In this document: positions 41,584 to 50,837 of the stretch, piece by piece
How the letters are laid out: each line of letters opens with the position of its first letter
Position numbering within the stretch: position 1 is the first letter of the stretch
Assembly: GCF_000620505.1 (NCBI RefSeq)
Contig: NZ_JIBC01000005.1
Coordinates: forward strand, 62,001 to 126,000
DNA from: Sulfitobacter sp. 20_GPM-1509m
GTDB taxonomy: Bacteria > Pseudomonadota > Alphaproteobacteria > Rhodobacterales > Rhodobacteraceae
Reading direction: 5' to 3'
Length of the DNA: 64,000 nucleotides
Program-made: the position numbers and the translations under genes
The notes under the pieces: generated by a model
Seen by the model: the letters and a program-made list of their open reading frames with translations, nothing else
The model's database searches: none
What the model was told of the DNA's origin: nothing

Positions 41584-41994
41584 ATGCACGCGACCATTCA
41601 GGCATTCCACGATGCGGTTCTGGCCAAGGACGACGACGCGATCCTGCCGCTGTTCGCCGAAGACATACGGTTCATGCCGCCGACCTATTGGAAGACGTGG
41701 ACCGGGCGTGCGGCCGTGGCGGCGGTACTGGGCCATGTGAACGCGGTATTCACCGATTTCTCTTATCGCCGCGTGCTGGGCGAAGGGCGCGACTGGATGC
41801 TGGAGTTTCAGTGCAAGGTCGACGGGCTGGACGCCGTGGGTGTTGATCTGATCACGCTGAATGACGAGGGGCTGGTGCAGGAATTCGAGGTGGTGATGCG
41901 CCCATACAAGACGGTCGGAGCGCTGCGCGAGGCGATGATGGCGCGGATCGCCAAGGACCCCAGCTTTGCCACCTTTCGCGAGGCAATCAGCTAG
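41584..41994 (+). CDS. SnoaL-like / NTF2-fold protein
   Basis: 136 residues. The sequence (IQAFHDAVLAKDDDAILPLFAEDIRF..., WTGRAAVAAVLGHVNAVF) has the alpha+beta cone features of the NTF2/SnoaL superfamily. These are small enzymes or ligand binders of varied function. No catalytic residues can be assigned. It converges with RarD, sharing CTAG in the overlapping stops. AAGG lies upstream of the chosen ATG; an earlier in-frame ATG exists. Confidence 0.75.
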   Translation: MHATIQAFHDAVLAKDDDAILPLFAEDIRFMPPTYWKTWTGRAAVAAVLGHVNAVFTDFSYRRVLGEGRDWMLEFQCKVDGLDAVGVDLITLNDEGLVQEFEVVMRPYKTVGALREAMMARIAKDPSFATFREAIS

Positions 41995-42911
41995 GCGCGG
42001 CGGCCGCGCATCTGCCGGATCATCGAGATGGTATAAAGCACCAGCGCGCCCCAGATCATCGGAAAGGCAATCATCCGCGCCTGACCAAAAGGTTCCTTGA
42101 AGACAAAGACCGCCACCAGAAAGATCATCGTCGGCGCAATGTATTGCAACACGCCGATGGTGGTCAGACGCAACCCTTTTGCCCCGTTGGCATAGAGAAT
42201 CAGCGGTACCGCCGTGACCAAGCCGCAACCCAGCAGCAGCCATGTGTCGGTGCTGTTGCCCGCCATGAAATGACCTTGGCCGGTGGCGGTCAGATAGCCC
42301 ACATAGGCCAGTGCAGGCAGCAGCAGGATCAACACTTCCAGCAGGAACCCCTGGTTCGGCCCGATGGGCAGTTGTTTCTTGGCCAACGCATAAAAGCCCC
42401 AGCTGACCGTAAGACCAATGGCCGCCCACGGCACCGCCCCCAACGTCGTCGCCAGCACCACAACCGCGCACAGCGCAAGCGCCACCGCGGCCAGTTGCAG
42501 CTTGTCCAGCTTTTCACCCAGCAGCAAAGCGCCCAGCGCCACGCTGAACAGCGGGTTGATGTAATAGCCCAGCGCCGCATCCAGCGTCCGGTCTGCTGCG
42601 ATGGCCCAGACGTAGATGCCCCAGTTAAAAGTGATCAGCGCGGCAGTGACACAGCCCATCGCCAGCGTACGCGGACTGCGCAGTGCAGTGCGGATGTCAC
42701 GGGTGCGGCCAAGGAAGATCAGCAGCGCACCTGCAATCGGCACCGCCCAGATGATCCGGTGCGCGACAATTTCGGCGGCAGGCACGTGGCTGACAGCCTT
42801 CAGGTACAGCGGCAGAAAGCCCCACAGAACATAGGCACCGAGCGCGAAGCCAAGGCCCTGGGCCGTGTCCCCGCTGGCAGGGTTTACATTCGGAGCGGGA
42901 GGCGTGCGCAT
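41991..42911 (-). CDS. rarD: RarD-type EamA/DMT transporter
   Basis: 306 residues, ten transmembrane helices in two EamA repeats. The RarD subfamily is recognised from GAYVLWGFLPLYLKAVSHVPAAEIVAHRI, NWGIYVWAIAADRTLDAALGYYINPL and VPLILYANGAKGLRLTTIGVLQYIAPT. It is probably an amino-acid or metabolite exporter; the substrate is not known. Its start lies about 60 bp before the end of the next, same-strand dehydrogenase gene. Confidence 0.92.
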   Translation of the reverse strand: MRTPPAPNVNPASGDTAQGLGFALGAYVLWGFLPLYLKAVSHVPAAEIVAHRIIWAVPIAGALLIFLGRTRDIRTALRSPRTLAMGCVTAALITFNWGIYVWAIAADRTLDAALGYYINPLFSVALGALLLGEKLDKLQLAAVALALCAVVVLATTLGAVPWAAIGLTVSWGFYALAKKQLPIGPNQGFLLEVLILLLPALAYVGYLTATGQGHFMAGNSTDTWLLLGCGLVTAVPLILYANGAKGLRLTTIGVLQYIAPTMIFLVAVFVFKEPFGQARMIAFPMIWGALVLYTISMIRQMRGRRA

Positions 42912-42973: not shown

Positions 42974-45421
42974 TCAGACCTTGGTACGCGCGCCTGTCGG
43001 ATCATAGAAGGGCTTCAGCGAAGCTTCCGCTGCGTAACGCCGGCCCGCCACGTCAATTTCATAAGACGAGGCCAGCACATCCGCCACGGATTGCCCCCCG
43101 CAAGGCACATAAGCCATGCCCATGGCCGCACCAAAGTGATGACCATACGCCCCCGAACTGAGCTGTCCCACGATCTTGCCATCCCGCAGCACAGGCTCAT
43201 TGTGATAGAGCAGCGGTTCGGGGTCGGTCAGGCGGAATTGCACCAGACGACGCTCCAGCCCTGCCTCTTTCATTCGCAGCACAGCTTCACGCCCGACAAA
43301 GGCCGGCTTGTCCAGCTTGACCGCAAAGCCAAGGCCCGCTTCCAGAACATGATCCTCGGCGGTGATGTCATGGCCGAAATGGCGGAAACCCTTTTCCATC
43401 CGGCAGGTGTCCATCATGTGCATCCCGCACAGCCTGGCCCCCATCTGCTGACCTGCGGCGTGCAGCACCTCGAACACGTGGCCTGCCATATCGGCGCTGA
43501 TGTACACCTCCCAACCCAGTTCGCCCACATAGGTCACGCGGTGCACACGGGCCAGCGCCATGCCGATCTCGATCTCTTGGGCGGTGCCGAACGGGTTGAT
43601 GTCGTTGCTGAAATCGGCAGGCGACACCATCTGCAGCAGCTTGCGGGCGTTGGGGCCCATGACGGCCAGCACCGCCTCGCCTGCTGTCACATCGGTCAGA
43701 ACAACGTTGTGATCCCCCTTGTGGCGCATCATCCATGTCTGGTCGGCCAGCCGCGTGGCGGCGGGGGTCACGACCAGATAGGCGGTTTCGCTCAGACGGG
43801 TCACGGTCACGTCCGCCTCGATCCCGCCGCGCGGGTTCAGGAACTGGGTGTAGACGATACGGCCCACGGCCACGTCATATTGCCCGCCGCCGATGTGGTT
43901 GAGAAAGGCGCAGGCGTCCGGCCCCTCGACACGAATCTTGCCAAAGGACGACATGTCGTAAATGCCGACATTCTCGCGCACGGCGCGGTGTTCGGCGGCG
44001 ATGTTGTCAAAAAAGGTCTGCCGTTTCCAGCTGTAGGCATATTCCGGCGTCTGGCCGGGGTTGGCGTACCAGTTGGCCCGCTCCCACCCGGCCAGTTCGC
44101 CCATGACAGCGCCCTGTTCCAGCAGGTGATGGTGGAACGGCGTGCGGCGGATACCGCGTGCGGTGGCCTTCTGGCGATAGGGGAAGTGATCGGCATAAAG
44201 CAGGCCCAGCGTTTCCGTGGAGCGGGCGGCAAGATAGGTCTTGTTGCCCTGAAACGGCTGCATCCGCGCGATGTCCACATCGCCCAGATCAAACGGCTTT
44301 TCGCCCGCCTCCATCCATTGCGCCAGCGCCATACCGGCGCCACCTGCCGACTGGATGCCGATCGAGTTGAAGCCCGCCGCGACCCAGACGTTGTCCATCT
44401 CGGGCGCAAGGCCAAGGTGGTAGGCGTCATCGGGGGTAAAGCTTTCGGGGCCGTTGAAAAAGGTATGGATGCCCGCATCCGCCAGCATCGGCATGCGGTT
44501 TACGGCGGCTTCAAGGATCGGTTCGAAGTGGTCGAAGTCCTCGGGCAGTTGGTCGAATTCAAAGTCGTGCGGGATGCCGTTCACCGCCCAGGGCTTGCTG
44601 ACCGGCTCGAAAGCGCCCAGCAGGATCTTGCCCGCGTCTTCCTTGAAGTAAGTGCATTCGTCGGGGACGCGCAGCACCGGCATCTGGGTCAGGCCGGGGA
44701 TCACTTCGGAGACGATGTAGAAATGTTCGCAAGCTTGCAGCGGTACGTTCACCCCAGCCATCCGCCCGACCTGATGGCCCCACATGCCCGCGCAGTTCAC
44801 GATCATGTCGCAGGCGATGTGACCGTTGCTGCCGTCCGCGCCCTGCCAGTCCACGCCTGTCACGCGACGGCCTGCGCGGGTGATGTTGGTAACGGCGGCA
44901 CGTTCATGGATGTGCGCCCCGTGCTGCCGCGCGCCCTTGGCCAGCGCCAGCGCGATGTTGGACGGATCACCCTGCCCGTCCAGCGGCAGGTAAACACCGC
45001 CCGTAACACCGTCGATGTTCAGGTGTTCATATTTCACCTTGACCTCGGAGGGGCTGATTTCCTGCACCTCGACGCCAAAGGCACGGGCCATGGCCGCCTG
45101 CCGGTGCAGCTCTTCCAGACGCTCGGTCGTCAGGGCGGCGGTGATCGAGCCAACCCGTTTGAAGCCCGTTGCCACGCCTGTTTCGGCTTCCAGATTGCCG
45201 TAAAGCTCCTGCGAATATTTCGCGAGTTTGGTCATGTTGGCCGACGCGCGCAGCTGGGCGATCAAGCCTGCGGCGTGCCATGTGGTGCCTGATGTAAGTT
45301 GTTTGCGTTCCAACAGCACGACATCTCGCCACCCCAGTTGCGTCAGGTGATAGGCGACGGAGCAACCGATGACACCGCCACCGATGATGACAACGCGGGC
45401 ATGTGTGGGCAGGTCGGGCAT
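42974..45421 (-). CDS. FAD-dependent oxidoreductase with GcvT domain, sarcosine-dehydrogenase-like
   Basis: 815 residues. The N-terminal DAO-fold FAD domain begins VVIIGGGVIGCSVAYHLTQLGW, with the His-containing flavin-attachment-like segment TSGTTWHAAGLIAQLRASAN; TSGTTWHAAGL is typical of sarcosine dehydrogenase and its relatives. From about residue 430 a tetrahydrofolate-binding GcvT domain follows (VGIYDMSSFGKIRVEGPDA; YVGELGWEVYI; MEKGFRHFGHDI). It should oxidise an N-methyl amine and pass the carbon to tetrahydrofolate. It is last in the operon, 75 bp after the homocysteine methyltransferase gene with a repeat copy between them. Confidence 0.88.
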   Translation of the reverse strand: MPDLPTHARVVIIGGGVIGCSVAYHLTQLGWRDVVLLERKQLTSGTTWHAAGLIAQLRASANMTKLAKYSQELYGNLEAETGVATGFKRVGSITAALTTERLEELHRQAAMARAFGVEVQEISPSEVKVKYEHLNIDGVTGGVYLPLDGQGDPSNIALALAKGARQHGAHIHERAAVTNITRAGRRVTGVDWQGADGSNGHIACDMIVNCAGMWGHQVGRMAGVNVPLQACEHFYIVSEVIPGLTQMPVLRVPDECTYFKEDAGKILLGAFEPVSKPWAVNGIPHDFEFDQLPEDFDHFEPILEAAVNRMPMLADAGIHTFFNGPESFTPDDAYHLGLAPEMDNVWVAAGFNSIGIQSAGGAGMALAQWMEAGEKPFDLGDVDIARMQPFQGNKTYLAARSTETLGLLYADHFPYRQKATARGIRRTPFHHHLLEQGAVMGELAGWERANWYANPGQTPEYAYSWKRQTFFDNIAAEHRAVRENVGIYDMSSFGKIRVEGPDACAFLNHIGGGQYDVAVGRIVYTQFLNPRGGIEADVTVTRLSETAYLVVTPAATRLADQTWMMRHKGDHNVVLTDVTAGEAVLAVMGPNARKLLQMVSPADFSNDINPFGTAQEIEIGMALARVHRVTYVGELGWEVYISADMAGHVFEVLHAAGQQMGARLCGMHMMDTCRMEKGFRHFGHDITAEDHVLEAGLGFAVKLDKPAFVGREAVLRMKEAGLERRLVQFRLTDPEPLLYHNEPVLRDGKIVGQLSSGAYGHHFGAAMGMAYVPCGGQSVADVLASSYEIDVAGRRYAAEASLKPFYDPTGARTKV

Positions 45422-45445
45422 GGCGGTCTCCGGGATTGGGCGGGG

Positions 45446-45495
45446 TCAGCGGGGGCCAGCCCCTGCACCCCCGGGATATTTGGGGCCAAAAGAAA
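45446..45495 (-). repeat. Dispersed intergenic repeat, copy D
   Basis: The 22-bp core (45495-45474, minus strand) matches copy C at 20 of 22 bases and abuts the stop codon of the homocysteine S-methyltransferase gene. It is followed on the minus strand by GGGGG and a GGGGC/GCCCC hairpin. This copy lies inside a probable operon, so it may affect message processing or relative expression. Confidence 0.7.
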
Positions 45496-46383
45496 TCAGG
45501 GGCGGGTGAGGGTGTGACCTGATGCTGTCAGGCGGCGGGCAATTTCAGCGATATGGGCGGGGCTGACTTCGCAGCAACCACCGACGATGGTGGCCCCTGC
45601 GTCGACCCATGCCATGACGTGATCGGCATAGGCTGCAGGGGTGAAATCGTGGCGGGTTTGCAGGTCAGCGACGGTGGGGCGCGATTGCAGGAATTCTTCG
45701 GTGATGCGCTGAAAGCCGTTGGCATAGGCGCCGTAAGGCAATGTGCCTTGCGACAGGATGGCGAGGGCTGCGGGGATCACCTCGGGGGCAGAGCAGTTGA
45801 CAAGAACGGCGACGGCCTGCCCTGCAGCGATGGGCAATATGCCTGCCACCGCTTCACCCGAGCGCAATTTGGTGCCGTCGCGGTCATCGACGGTGATGGA
45901 CAGCCAGACAGGTTTGCCCGCGGTGGCAGCCCCCGCCAGCACGCTGCTGGCGTGGTCCAGCGAGGCCACGGTTTCGCAGATCAGTAGGTCGCAAGAGGGC
46001 GCAAGCAGGCCCGCGACTTCGGTGTAAAGTGGGATCGCGGTTGCGGGATCAGGGTGCAGGTCAGGCCGGTATGAGGCAACCAGCGGACCGATAGAGCCTG
46101 CAATCACCGGCGCCTTGCTGTTGCGCGCCTCGGTCAATGCGCGGTCCATCAGGGTCTGGAACTGACCCTCCACGTCGGTGCCGACAAAGCGGTCGCGGTG
46201 GATGGCGTAGGTGTTCGTTGTGGCCACGGTCGCCCCTGCGGCGCCAAAATCGCGGTGCACCTCGGCCACAAGTCCCGGGTGGTCGATCATCACCTGGGTG
46301 GACCACAACGGTGTGGGCCTGTCGCCTGCACGGTGGATCAGCTCTTGGCCCATGCCGCCGTCGAGAAGGATGATTTGTGTCAT
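45496..46383 (-). CDS. Homocysteine S-methyltransferase family protein
   Basis: 295 residues, TIM-barrel Pfam S-methyl_trans family. The three zinc-thiolate cysteines are present: Cys197 in LVNCSAPE and Cys270-Cys271 in VGGCCEVSP. Other blocks are LLDGGMGQELI and TTNTYAIHRDRF. It transfers a methyl group to homocysteine to form methionine. Between two dimethylglycine/sarcosine-type dehydrogenase genes the donor is likely glycine betaine or a related methylated compound, but S-methylmethionine is also possible. Confidence 0.9.
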   Translation of the reverse strand: MTQIILLDGGMGQELIHRAGDRPTPLWSTQVMIDHPGLVAEVHRDFGAAGATVATTNTYAIHRDRFVGTDVEGQFQTLMDRALTEARNSKAPVIAGSIGPLVASYRPDLHPDPATAIPLYTEVAGLLAPSCDLLICETVASLDHASSVLAGAATAGKPVWLSITVDDRDGTKLRSGEAVAGILPIAAGQAVAVLVNCSAPEVIPAALAILSQGTLPYGAYANGFQRITEEFLQSRPTVADLQTRHDFTPAAYADHVMAWVDAGATIVGGCCEVSPAHIAEIARRLTASGHTLTRP

Positions 46384-46408
46384 TTCATGTGTTCCAAGGA
46401 TGAGTGTT

Positions 46409-48856
46409 TCAGGCCCGCAAACGGGTGTTCTGCGGGTCCCACAGCGGCCCTTCGGGCTGCACCACGGCGCGGTGTTTGGTGCCGAAAATATCGACCTGCA
46501 GTTCCGTACCTGCCACCGCCAGATCGGCGCGCACCATGCCCAGCGCGATGGACGCGTTCACGCGGTAACCCCAGTCGCCGCTGGTGGTTTCCCCTACAAC
46601 CGCACCGTCATGCCAGAGCGTCGACATATAGGGCGCATCCGCATCGCCTGCGTCGACGATCAGGGTGACGAACCGTTTGGCAGGGCCGCGCTGGTGTTCA
46701 GCCAGCAATGCTTGCTTGCCGGGGAACTCCTGTGGCTTGTCCAGCTTGATGAAACGGTCAAGGCCGCCTTCGAACAGGGTGTAATCGGTGCTGAGGTCAC
46801 CCTTCCACGTGCGATAGCCCTTTTCGATACGCATGGCGTTCAGGGCGTACATGCCAAAGGGTTTGGCGCCTGCTTCGGTCACGGCCTGGTACAGCGGACC
46901 AATGTCCGCGTTGGCCGCGTGGATTTCCCAGCCCAACTCGCCTGCGAAGGACACCCGTGCCAACGCACAGGGCCTGCCCGCGACGGTTGCTGCCTGATGG
47001 GTCAGCCAAAGGGCGGTCAAGTCGGCCTGAGTCTGCAGACGTTCAAACAGGGCGCGGCTGTTGGGTCCGGTGACGATCAGCGTTCCGTACTCTTTCGTAT
47101 GGTCTGTCGGCGTCAGCCCCTCGGGCAGGTCGCCGTGCAACACGTCCCAGTCGTGCCACTGCGCCGTAGCTGCGGTGATCAGGGTAAAGGCGTCCTCGTC
47201 GTGTCGCAGGATCGACATTTCGGTGAGGATGCGCCCCCGGCTGTCGGGGAAATAGCCAAGGTTCATGCGCCCGACCTTGGGCAGGCCGCCCGCTATCTTG
47301 CTGCGCAGGTATTCGGCGGCTCCTGCCCCTGACAGGTTGAACCGCGAGAAGCCGGGCAGGTCCAGCACGCCCACATCGTCGCGCACCGCTTCGACCTCTT
47401 CGCGCACGCGCAGCGCCCACGGGCCGTTGCGATCCCATGTCTGGGTGGCCGCCTCGCTGGTGTCGTCGCCGGGTGCCGCAAACCAGTTGGCGCGCTCCCA
47501 GCCGTTATAGGCACCCATGACACCGCCCTTGGCCAGCACCTGATCGTGGGCAGGCGACAGCTTGCGGTCGCGGCCAGCGGGCCAGGCGTGGTGGGGGAAG
47601 TGCATGGCGTATTCGTGGCCGTAGGTTTCCAGCGCCTTTTGATTGCAATAATCCTGATCGGTGTAATCGGTGTAGCGGCGCGGGTCGCAGGACCACATAT
47701 CCCATTCGGTCTGCCCCTCGGTCACCCATTCGGCCAGTACCTTGCCCGCACCGCCGCCCTGGGTGATGCCAAAGGTGAACACGCAAGCCTCGAACGCATT
47801 GGGCACGCCGGGCATCGGGCCGATCAGCGGCAGGCCGTCAGGCGCGTAGGGAATGGGGCCGTTGATCACCCGGCCCACGCCGGCGGTGCCAAGGATCGGC
47901 ACACGGGCCATCGCGTCCTCAATGTACCATTCCAGCCGCTCCAGATCGTCGGGGTAAAGCTGAAAGCTGAAGTCCTCGGGCATCGGATCGTCGGGGGTCA
48001 CCCAATGGGCGCGGCAGTTCCGCTCATAGGGGCCAAGGTTCAGGCCATTCTTGTCCTGACGCAGGTAATACGAGCTGTCCACGTCGCGCAGCAGCGGCAC
48101 CTTGCGGCTATTGTCGCGGGTCCAGTCGGCCAGTGCGGGGATTTCCTCGGTCAGGAAATACTGGTGGCTCATCACCGTCATCGGCACAGTGCGCCCGCCG
48201 TAGGGTTTGAACCATTCACCGACACGCTGGGCGTAATATCCGGCGGCGTTGACCACTTTTTCGCAGCGGATGTCGCCCTTGTCGGTGTGGACGATCCATT
48301 CGTTGCCCTGACGGCTGACGCCGGTGGCTGGACAGAACCGTTCGATGCGCGCGCCCATGGCACGCGCTCCTTTGGCCAGTGCCTGCGTCAATTGCGCGGG
48401 GTCGATGTCACCATCATCGGGGTCCCACAGCGCCCCTGCCAGATCATGCGTTTCGATGAATGGATAGCGGTCCTTGATGTCCGCCACCGCCATCATCTCA
48501 AGGTCCAGTCCCTGATAGCGGCCCATCGCACGGGCGCGTTCAAACTCTTGCATCCGTTCGCGGGAATGGCCCAGGCGCACCGACCCCGTGACGTGATAGT
48601 TCATCGGATAATCCACCGCCTCGGCCAGCCCCGCATACAGGCCCAGCGAATAGCGTTGCATGTTCATCACCGCCCACGACGTGCTGAAGCTGGGACAGTT
48701 TCCGGCGGCGTGCCACGTGCTGCCTGCGGTCAGTTCGTTCTTTTCCAGCAGCACGCAATCGGTCCACCCTGCCTTGGCCAGATGGTACAGCGACGAGGCG
48801 CCGACAACGCCGCCACCGATGATGACCACACGGGCCGTTGTGGGGAATGTGCTCAT
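46409..48856 (-). CDS. FAD-dependent oxidoreductase with GcvT domain, dimethylglycine-dehydrogenase-like
   Basis: 815 residues, a paralogue of the gene at 43-45.4 kb with the same length and architecture: FAD motif VVIIGGGVVGASSLYHLAKAGW, TAGSTWHAAGNCPSFSTSW (probable flavin-attachment region), then a GcvT folate domain from about residue 430 (VGVLDLPGFSRFNLSGAGA; FAGELGWEIH; RIEKGYRTWKGDLS). The TAGSTWHAAG form resembles dimethylglycine dehydrogenase. Assigning this as the DMG step and the other as the sarcosine step is inference. It overlaps the GFA gene by 4 bp (ATGA). Confidence 0.88.
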   Translation of the reverse strand: MSTFPTTARVVIIGGGVVGASSLYHLAKAGWTDCVLLEKNELTAGSTWHAAGNCPSFSTSWAVMNMQRYSLGLYAGLAEAVDYPMNYHVTGSVRLGHSRERMQEFERARAMGRYQGLDLEMMAVADIKDRYPFIETHDLAGALWDPDDGDIDPAQLTQALAKGARAMGARIERFCPATGVSRQGNEWIVHTDKGDIRCEKVVNAAGYYAQRVGEWFKPYGGRTVPMTVMSHQYFLTEEIPALADWTRDNSRKVPLLRDVDSSYYLRQDKNGLNLGPYERNCRAHWVTPDDPMPEDFSFQLYPDDLERLEWYIEDAMARVPILGTAGVGRVINGPIPYAPDGLPLIGPMPGVPNAFEACVFTFGITQGGGAGKVLAEWVTEGQTEWDMWSCDPRRYTDYTDQDYCNQKALETYGHEYAMHFPHHAWPAGRDRKLSPAHDQVLAKGGVMGAYNGWERANWFAAPGDDTSEAATQTWDRNGPWALRVREEVEAVRDDVGVLDLPGFSRFNLSGAGAAEYLRSKIAGGLPKVGRMNLGYFPDSRGRILTEMSILRHDEDAFTLITAATAQWHDWDVLHGDLPEGLTPTDHTKEYGTLIVTGPNSRALFERLQTQADLTALWLTHQAATVAGRPCALARVSFAGELGWEIHAANADIGPLYQAVTEAGAKPFGMYALNAMRIEKGYRTWKGDLSTDYTLFEGGLDRFIKLDKPQEFPGKQALLAEHQRGPAKRFVTLIVDAGDADAPYMSTLWHDGAVVGETTSGDWGYRVNASIALGMVRADLAVAGTELQVDIFGTKHRAVVQPEGPLWDPQNTRLRA

Positions 48857-49224
48857 GCGTCGGGGTCCTGTGCCGGGGGGATCTGGTAATAATCACCTTT
48901 GTCCTGCGTGAAGATATGGCGCGTCAGGGTCAGCCCCGTGGGGGCGTCAAGCGCGCCCATGGCGACGCCGATTTCATCCTCGGCATGGCTTTTCCAGAAC
49001 AAGGACGACCCGCAGGTGGGGCAAAAGCCGCGCTTGGCGGTGTCGCTGGCCTCGAACCAGCGCACGTCGCCTTGCATCTCGAAGGCCGACAGCGGGACCT
49101 GAACCGAGGCCCAGATGTGACCCGATTGCTTACGGCACTGCGTGCAGTGGCAGGCGGCGGGGTCTTTGGCCGTGGCGGTGGCGGTGAAGGTCACGCCGCC
49201 ACACAGGCAGCTTCCGGTCAGCAT
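48853..49224 (-). CDS. GFA-family (formaldehyde-activating-like) zinc protein
   Basis: 123 residues. The zinc cysteine set of the GFA/CENP-V fold is present: SCLCGG, ACHCTQCRK and FCPTCGSSLFW. Members bind glutathione or reactive carbonyls; a link to formaldehyde in this operon of demethylating oxidases is attractive but not proven. The start at 49224 (MLTGSCLCGGV) is preferred over a much longer frame that runs into the regulator gene. It overlaps the following dehydrogenase gene by 4 bp. Confidence 0.88.
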   Translation of the reverse strand: MLTGSCLCGGVTFTATATAKDPAACHCTQCRKQSGHIWASVQVPLSAFEMQGDVRWFEASDTAKRGFCPTCGSSLFWKSHAEDEIGVAMGALDAPTGLTLTRHIFTQDKGDYYQIPPAQDPDA

Positions 49225-49249
49225 TTGAGGGACTCCTTTGCCTTGGCCA

Positions 49250-49822
49250 TCAGTAGACAGGGGGTGCGATGACCCAGATCGCCACGGCGGGCGCGTCATG
49301 GGGATTGATCCAGCGGAACGGCTCGCCCCGGATACGGAAGCTGTCGCCGGGGTGGATTGTGTAACGCGTGCCTGCAATCTCCAGATCGAGCGCACCCGAG
49401 ATCAGGTAACCGACCTCTTGCGTGGGGCGGGTGACCGGATGGATGATTTCGGACCGCGGCGCAAAGGTAGAATGCACCATTTCAAAATCGTCGGTCAGAT
49501 CGGGGGACAGCAGTTCCTCGACCAGCCCCGCGATGGGTGAACCAATAGGACGGCGCGCCCCCTTGCGCACGATGTATCCGGCCTCGTGGGCGGGCGCGGC
49601 AGCGTGGCGGAACAACATCGACACCGATACGCCCAGATGGGCTGCGATGTGGCGCAGGTCGGTGATGGAAGGTTCGGACAGGTCACGCTCGACCTGGCTG
49701 AGCCACCCGACCGAACGGCCCAGCTCATCCGCCATGTCCTGCAAGGTGATCCCCCGCGCCTTGCGCAGGGCGCGCAGATCGGCGCCCAGCGTTTTGGCAG
49801 TGTCGGGGGCAGATTGCATCAT
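49250..49822 (-). CDS. XRE-cupin transcriptional regulator of the methylamine operon
   Basis: 190 residues. An XRE helix-turn-helix (about 14-68, ITLQDMADELGRSVGWLSQVERDLSEPSI) is followed by a cupin ligand domain (about 115-190; EVGYLISGALDLEIAGTRYTIHPGDSF). This fused type often senses small amines or amino acids. It starts the operon: the GFA gene begins 25 bp after its stop. Two 25-bp operator-like sites lie 14 and 54 bp upstream of its start, suggesting autoregulation. Confidence 0.92.
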   Translation of the reverse strand: MMQSAPDTAKTLGADLRALRKARGITLQDMADELGRSVGWLSQVERDLSEPSITDLRHIAAHLGVSVSMLFRHAAAPAHEAGYIVRKGARRPIGSPIAGLVEELLSPDLTDDFEMVHSTFAPRSEIIHPVTRPTQEVGYLISGALDLEIAGTRYTIHPGDSFRIRGEPFRWINPHDAPAVAIWVIAPPVY

Positions 49823-49835
49823 ATGCGACTCGCGG

Positions 49836-49900
49836 TGAAAAATTAGGCCTGGATTTCACGGTGCGCCGTTGCAAATGAAAAATCAAGGCAAAATTTCACG
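49836..49900. promoter_or_regulatory. Twin 25-bp operator-like sites upstream of the XRE-cupin gene
   Basis: Site 1 (49836-49860) and site 2 (49876-49900) are identical at 19 of 25 positions and start exactly 40 bp apart, about four helical turns. Both begin TGAAAAAT and end ATTTCACG; inverted GTGAAA/TTTCAC arms are complete in site 1 and partial (ATGAAA/TTTCAC) in site 2. They lie just upstream of the regulator start at 49822. The most likely reader is the adjacent XRE-cupin protein. Confidence 0.7.
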
Positions 49901-49941: not shown

Positions 49942-50736
49942 CTAAAGTGACTTGCCCCTGTCAGCCGCTGCCATCAGCCCGTCGCTGATCGTTTTCGATA
50001 TGTCGGCGTCGATCATTGCGTTCAATCCGGCCGCTGTTGTGCCCGCATAGTCAATCATCCATCTGACTTGATCGGCAGGCCGCGCGCTGTCCTGTGCCAG
50101 CATGGTGCCCCCTGCAAGGAAAAGCTGGCGCACAGCGCGGTCTGCCACCTGCGGGTCAATGCCCTGTCGTTCGGCGTGGTCCACCATGCACTGCGCAAAC
50201 AGGGCGACAAATCCCGGCACAGGGCCTGTCATTGCCGTGAAATGGTCTATCTGGCTTTCTTCAAACACCTGATCTGTCGCGCCGCAGGCCTCCAGGAGCC
50301 GGCGGACGACCTCACGATCCTGCACCGTCACGGCGTCACTGGCGAACCACGGGGAATAGGCCAGCGCCAGAGACGCGGCGGGACTGCTCATGGCGCGCAC
50401 CACGCGCGCGGCCCCTGTCTGTGATGCAATCCTGTCCGAGGTCACACCGGCCATCACCGAAATCACCAGCTTGTTGGTGGCGTCAATCTGGATGCCGGGA
50501 AAGCTGGCAGGCGGCACGCACAGGACGATCGTATCGCATGCATCCACCAGGCGTTTGTTGTCCGTGGTGACGTTGAGACCCGACGACTGCCCAAAGTCCG
50601 GCGCGGCTCCGGTGCGGTTGGAGACCCAGAACCGGTGCGGATCAACCGCGCCGCTTGCAAGCAGCGCTTTGGAAATCGCGCTGCCCAACATGCCCGCGCC
50701 GCCAATAATGCCAATGTTATTGCCCGAATGTGCCAT
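49942..50736 (-). CDS. Pyrroline-5-carboxylate reductase-like protein (ProC family)
   Basis: 264 residues. An N-terminal Rossmann motif IGIIGGAGMLGSAI, then IVLCVPPASF, and the C-terminal dimer domain segment AMTGPVPGFVALFAQCMVDHAE correspond to P5C reductase, but the normal catalytic loop (SGSGPAY-type) is altered to TGPVPGF. It may act on a related imine rather than being the housekeeping proline enzyme. The start at 50736 has AGGAG nine bases upstream. It lies downstream of the thiolase gene on the same strand, about 100 bp away. Confidence 0.75.
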   Translation of the reverse strand: MAHSGNNIGIIGGAGMLGSAISKALLASGAVDPHRFWVSNRTGAAPDFGQSSGLNVTTDNKRLVDACDTIVLCVPPASFPGIQIDATNKLVISVMAGVTSDRIASQTGAARVVRAMSSPAASLALAYSPWFASDAVTVQDREVVRRLLEACGATDQVFEESQIDHFTAMTGPVPGFVALFAQCMVDHAERQGIDPQVADRAVRQLFLAGGTMLAQDSARPADQVRWMIDYAGTTAAGLNAMIDADISKTISDGLMAAADRGKSL

Positions 50737-50837
50737 TGCTATGCTCCTGTTCCGCCAGGGCACCAGCTTGGTGGAAGGCACCGCGCCCTGTCAATTCAGC
50801 ACAGAACGCGGCCCTTCTCGGGATGCAATAGACGCGA

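Follow-up and report, generated by a model that had tools for sequence, protein, structure and literature searches.

A conserved palindrome pair precedes the XRE-cupin regulator gene of a putative betaine-related demethylation operon in Rhodobacteraceae

The Roseobacter litoralis trio RLO149_c039090-c039110 was described as encoding a sarcosine dehydrogenase (SARDH), a homocysteine S-methyltransferase and a dimethylglycine dehydrogenase (DMGDH4); a similar gene was noted in R. denitrificans, and the methyltransferase was proposed to represent a new class of betaine-homocysteine methyltransferase (BHMT) (Kalhoefer et al., 2011; PMC3141670). In Ruegeria pomeroyi, SPO3400 and SPO3396 were assigned by Lidbury et al. 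(2015; PMC4744692), and the genome annotates a homocysteine S-methyltransferase, SPO3398, between them (PMC4809877, PMC4744692). Here, we analyze five minus-strand genes within a 64,000-nucleotide stretch of Sulfitobacter sp. 20_GPM-1509m (contig NZ_JIBC01000005.1, positions 62,001 to 126,000; hereafter the window), which resemble both described loci in their three enzyme types, their neighborhood and their proposed role with betaine; for R. pomeroyi SPO3396, SPO3398 and SPO3400, the orthology to the window genes comes from annotation, not sequence. Because the cluster was described in 2011 in R. litoralis with much the same reading, it is not new: it is an ordinary marine cluster that is widely conserved and was proposed in print before. 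What is new is a conserved palindrome pair before the regulator gene, which is absent from the available portion of the R. litoralis description, together with evidence against a homocysteine route and against a formaldehyde role.

The original prediction was of a self-contained methylated-amine and one-carbon operon with its own regulator, in which the five genes are separated by short gaps and one 4-bp overlap. Open reading frame coordinates and Pfam matches bear out the position, order, overlap and gaps, and the predicted end at 49900 also covers the regulatory region upstream of the first gene. In window coordinates, the features are as follows.

49876-49898, no strand: upstream palindrome TGAAA-N13-TTTCA, proposed operator, 40 bp from the gene-proximal palindrome
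49836-49858, no strand: gene-proximal palindrome TGAAA-N13-TTTCA, proposed operator (sequence match)
49250-49822, minus strand: XRE, an XRE-cupin transcriptional regulator, 190 aa (Pfam HTH_31/HTH_3 and Cupin_2 above cut-off)
48853-49227, minus strand: GFA/CENP-V-family protein, 124 aa (Pfam GFA, 80.9 bits)
46409-48856, minus strand: F1, an FAD/GcvT flavoenzyme on the DMGDH side of the family, 815 aa (Pfam, tree, residues)
45496-46383, minus strand: HMT, a homocysteine S-methyltransferase-like protein, 295 aa, with MmuM nearest among solved structures (Pfam S-methyl_trans)
42974-45421, minus strand: F2, an FAD/GcvT flavoenzyme nearer SARDH and dimethylglycine oxidase (DMGO) by pairwise score, 815 aa (Pfam, residues)
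41991-42911, minus strand: RarD-type EamA transporter, 62 bp downstream of F2

All five proteins of the cluster exceed curated Pfam cut-offs (helix-turn-helix [HTH] plus cupin for XRE; GFA; DAO, FAO_M, GCV_T and GCV_T_C for each flavoenzyme; S-methyl_trans for HMT), and the intergenic distances are 22 bp between XRE and GFA, −4 bp between GFA and F1 (an ATGA overlap), 25 bp between F1 and HMT and 74 bp between HMT and F2.

Of everything that had been predicted, the presence of the operon's own regulator is the best-supported part. The palindrome TGAAA-N13-TTTCA occurs twice in the window (0.01 matches expected), both times before the XRE gene. When XRE upstream regions from 64 related loci and the window were searched with spacers of 11–17 allowed, at least one palindrome was present in 65 of 65 regions, compared to 0.1 expected in base shuffles, and the spacer was 13 bases in every region. 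Two exact sites are found in 48 of these regions, with 45 of the 48 pairs spaced 33–40 bp apart, mostly 39; the other 17 contain one exact site, to which four add a near-match at the pair distance. The consensus is RTGAAAWW-N9-WWTTTCAY. In a blind test, the exact pair was detected in 37 of 121 genomes of the family, the window's included, once in each (reversed control, 0), and an XRE-cupin gene adjoins the pair in all 30 of the 37 that were inspected. Elsewhere in the window's genome there are ten single matches outside the window and no other exact pair. Taken together, this comparative sequence evidence strongly supports a link between the palindromes, as putative operators, and the regulator. 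On the minus strand, the upstream palindrome contains CTTGAT, which may serve as a −35-like element. PuuR-type XRE-cupin repressors have the same HTH-then-cupin domain order; the XRE protein differs in scoring 44 of 211 bits for PuuR and in its own proposed operator, TGAAA-N13-TTTCA twice. We found no earlier report of the palindrome pair in the literature, a weak negative, as subscription journals lay mostly outside the search.

Scans of the locus for other regulatory features gave less. Terminator and promoter scans returned no more matches than in shuffled sequence, an Rfam search returned no match, and the HMT-F2 gap folds no better than shuffled sequence. The RarD transporter gene keeps its synteny in many relatives and may be co-transcribed with the operon.

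Comparison of 80 loci around F1 orthologs (72–95% identical) revealed a shared gene order with few exceptions: thiolase, GAF/fRMsr, XRE, LysE, GFA, F1, HMT, F2, RarD and RluC, with parts missing in many loci. XRE is present in 64 loci, HMT in 63, F2 in 73, GFA in 42, LysE in 43 and GAF/fRMsr in 46, all of which are lower bounds because some loci are cut by contig ends. The cluster, which was to be looked for in other Rhodobacteraceae, is conserved across the family and is no chance array. The window belongs to a genome that resembles Pseudosulfitobacter; among named relatives, P. pseudonitzschiae DSM 26824 is the nearest, with its five proteins 93–98% identical to those of the window. The GAF protein encoded upstream of XRE in relatives (for example, at L040:1841-2362, with similar open reading frames in 46 loci) matches solved GAF proteins, among them methionine-R-sulfoxide reductase, at about 94–111 bits. 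In the window, the usual GAF/fRMsr position is occupied by a ProC-like gene (49942-50781), whose product has a P5CR_dimer domain and falls below the proC equivalog cut-off; among the 80 loci, it is shared only with the nearest relative, L011.

That this is a methylated-amine and one-carbon cluster with two demethylating flavoenzymes is supported by the architecture and residues of F1 and F2. DAO, FAO_M, GCV_T and GCV_T_C span the full length of both proteins, with all four cut-offs reached by each, and the best solved relative of both is mammalian DMGDH; neither reached an NCBIfam equivalog cut-off among the families listed. The covalent-FAD histidine and the catalytic His/Tyr dyad, which has been described for DMGO and human DMGDH (PMC5082570), are present in 22 of 22 F1 and 22 of 22 F2 proteins, and at the GcvT catalytic site F1 has Glu, as in DMGDH, and F2 has Asp, as in DMGO. 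The two are 32% identical and form separate, fully supported Rhodobacteraceae clades. By sequence, F1 and F2 are two old paralogs, DMGDH-type flavoenzymes with catalytic residues intact. They share the FAD-GcvT architecture, covalent-FAD histidine and His/Tyr dyad with mammalian DMGDH and SARDH and Arthrobacter DMGO, from which they differ in being only 26–35% identical and in forming clades of their own.

Placement of the two enzymes in DMGDH and SARDH clades, as had been anticipated, gives a mixed picture. In the tree, F1 groups on the DMGDH side, yet it is not the genome's nearest DMGDH relative, as other paralogs are as near or nearer. F2 stands apart. Its pairwise scores make it the genome's closest counterpart of DMGO and, as a lead only, of the SARDH reference sequence; that SARDH sequence groups with the opposite side of the tree. 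As the branches are long, the deep joins are unsafe. The window's genome (G000) encodes five full-length FAD/GcvT flavoenzymes in all. Two form a divergent pair at G000:C8:31455-36550, 43% identical to one another and slightly nearer DMGDH than F1, and are followed by a GAF/histidine-kinase-like gene. The fifth, at G000:C2:378099-380579, adjoins a gene resembling an FAD-linked oxidase subunit. On the best reading, F1 and F2 probably demethylate dimethylglycine and sarcosine onto tetrahydrofolate.

Where does the first methyl group of betaine go? The original prediction, like Kalhoefer et al. (2011), had betaine demethylated via homocysteine by the operon's own methyltransferase. Alignment indicates that HMT retains the homocysteine-binding Asp/Glu and three zinc-binding Cys. 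Tyr77 and Tyr160 of mammalian BHMT, which we take to be betaine-site residues, are replaced: in 69 HMT orthologs, the Tyr77 position is Ala or Ser, with a few Thr, Cys or Pro, and the Tyr160 position is nearly always Thr. HMT scores 61.5 bits against the BHMT family model NF005718 (cut-off 338) and 133.7 bits against the MmuM model NF007020 (cut-off 215). Its best solved relative is MmuM, the S-methylmethionine-homocysteine methyltransferase (5dml), with which it shares homocysteine- and zinc-binding residues and from which it differs by that score, 134 of 215 bits, under the curated cut-off. Among 38 genomes searched, no close HMT was found in seven that retain XRE, F1 and F2 (G001, G002, G004, G008, G009, G011 and G012), and in seven more HMT lies away from F1-F2.

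Published Ruegeria genetics attribute the first demethylation to the cobalamin system MtgBCD: in R. pomeroyi, mtgC and mtgD are required for betaine use, and the mtgC mutant is not rescued by methionine (PMC12478193). The window's genome contains candidate parts of this MtgBCDE betaine demethylase/split methionine synthase, unlinked to the operon: MtgB-family genes; an MtgE-type protein (NF005718, 576 bits), to which HMT is only 27% identical and from which it is distinct; and, for a split methionine synthase, separate pieces with B12 and pterin domains. No intact MetH was found in that genome. Genes of the MTTB family (quaternary-amine methyltransferases) are present in all 38 genomes, with three in the window's, at G000:C4:464317-465807, C8:93687-95180 and C4:180058-181572; the C8 copy reaches about 410 bits against the solved betaine methyltransferase and 728 bits against 4yyc. 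At eight of the 80 loci, F1-F2 (F1 alone in L049) adjoin an MTTB gene. Seven of these eight lack HMT, and all eight lack XRE and GFA at the locus. Of seven genomes in which F1 adjoins MTTB at a locus lacking XRE, six have no close XRE ortholog, their best relative being about 30% identical, and the seventh has a relative at 40%, compared to 64–79% in four control genomes. The locus MTTB proteins are 64–70% identical to one of the three in the window's genome. The MTTB neighborhood supports the idea that F1 and F2 take part in breaking down quaternary amines; it does not specify the substrate.

With a probability of roughly 60%, we favor the reading, drawn from sequence comparison, that the genes form a catabolic operon under local control, serving the lower part of glycine-betaine breakdown. 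The XRE-cupin protein would bind the two palindromes before its own gene and repress the operon until a small ligand in the cupin pocket, probably a methylated amine or its product, lifts repression. With the first methyl group of betaine removed elsewhere by MtgBCD, F1 and F2 would remove the two remaining N-methyl groups from dimethylglycine and sarcosine; FAD would be reduced and tetrahydrofolate would accept the methylene, yielding glycine and 5,10-methylene-tetrahydrofolate. HMT would be an accessory that makes methionine from homocysteine and a small methyl donor, for which S-methylmethionine or another sulfonium compound is a likelier candidate than betaine. Betaine can serve as the nitrogen source for growth of the type strain P. 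pseudonitzschiae DSM 26824 (Zecher et al., 2020; PMC7574528). Homarine catabolism was also considered as a role and dropped.

Several observations weigh against lower betaine breakdown as the role. Betaine, but not dimethylglycine provided from outside, supported growth of Roseobacter species that carry the cluster (PMC3141670). Three other full-length paralogs of the window's genome are 36–38% identical to rat DMGDH, compared to 35% for F1. In addition, this genome's copy of the MTTB subfamily that adjoins F1-F2 in relatives reaches only 188 bits against the solved betaine methyltransferase, and a quaternary amine other than betaine may therefore stand at the head of the substrate chain.

Among the alternatives, we regard as possible, if tentatively, that two modules sit at one place, one for methionine (the fRMsr-like GAF protein, the LysE exporter and HMT) and one for demethylation (F1-F2), joined by a regulator that responds to methionine or to the one-carbon state. 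In three of the seven genomes with an unlinked HMT, HMT remains beside thiolase, GAF/fRMsr and LysE genes, at a distance from F1-F2, and the matches of the GAF protein to methionine-R-sulfoxide reductase point the same way; against it, neither a LysE nor a GAF gene is present in the window's cluster. For F1-F2, this alternative would be compatible with a role in lower betaine breakdown and differs from it in what the operon answers to.

It is unlikely, we think, that the operon serves some other N-methylated compound, such as another betaine or an N-methyl amino acid, in place of dimethylglycine and sarcosine. The five full-length paralogs, three of them nearer DMGDH than F1, and the distance of the linked MTTB subfamily from the betaine enzyme would fit such a substrate. 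However, a tandem enzyme pair fits two successive methyl removals, and published R. pomeroyi proteomics has proteins predicted to demethylate dimethylglycine and sarcosine up on betaine, with no loci named in the text.

A self-contained betaine pathway, in which HMT is the BHMT and F1 and F2 finish the job, now looks doubtful. In its favor are the F1-HMT-F2 order kept in most loci, the naming of the same three gene types in R. litoralis (PMC3141670) and biochemistry of a related protein: purified P. inhibens Bmt, the MtgE protein, made methionine from betaine and dimethylsulfoniopropionate (DMSP) in vitro (PMC12366255). The MtgE protein of the window's genome, like MmuM and MetH, lacks the BHMT tyrosines, so missing residues do not exclude betaine activity. 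Nevertheless, the residue and distribution evidence makes HMT less likely to be a BHMT and weakens the 2011 proposal: both tyrosines are replaced, the BHMT model score is far under its cut-off, and HMT is dispensable and separable, being missing from seven of 38 genomes and unlinked in seven more. Moreover, an R. pomeroyi mutant in mtgC fails to use betaine also when methionine is supplied, despite carrying SPO3398, which by position and name is probably the HMT ortholog. Neither the homocysteine route nor the self-contained character of the operon is upheld. An antisense transcript, cis78, has been reported opposite SPO3398 (PMC4809877).

Somewhat speculatively, and with little confidence, one could envision HMT as a homocysteine methyltransferase class in its own right that uses an unrecognized methyl donor and is tied, through a dedicated XRE-cupin switch, to flavoenzymes feeding the folate pool; a single local sensor would then balance methionine synthesis against methyl oxidation in marine Rhodobacteraceae.

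The GFA protein was originally thought to provide an escape route for formaldehyde. It matches Pfam GFA only, with no NCBIfam match and no match to PRK05417 or to the TIGR02820 equivalog, a model present in the library searched. It scores 13 bits to Paracoccus Gfa (1x6m), and its nearest structure is 8ajq. The window's genome has seven GFA-family genes, and of the six others (partial sequences), only one touches TIGR02820, far below cut-off. DMGDH-type enzymes without folate can release formaldehyde, and the protein does carry the GFA domain, but given these scores, the failure to find GFA at about half of the F1 loci and the finding that Paracoccus Gfa itself does not catalyze its reaction under standard conditions (PMC4682968), a role in disposing of carbon not loaded on folate is very improbable.

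Glycine betaine ranks among the major osmolytes of the sea, and in the literature surveyed, the Rhodobacteraceae enzymes for its last two demethylations have been named by homology only. The HMT evidence helps settle the 2011 proposal that HMT is the missing betaine-homocysteine methyltransferase. Finally, the palindrome pair provides a direct handle on the system, since the operon's true substrate would become apparent from the ligand that the regulator binds.

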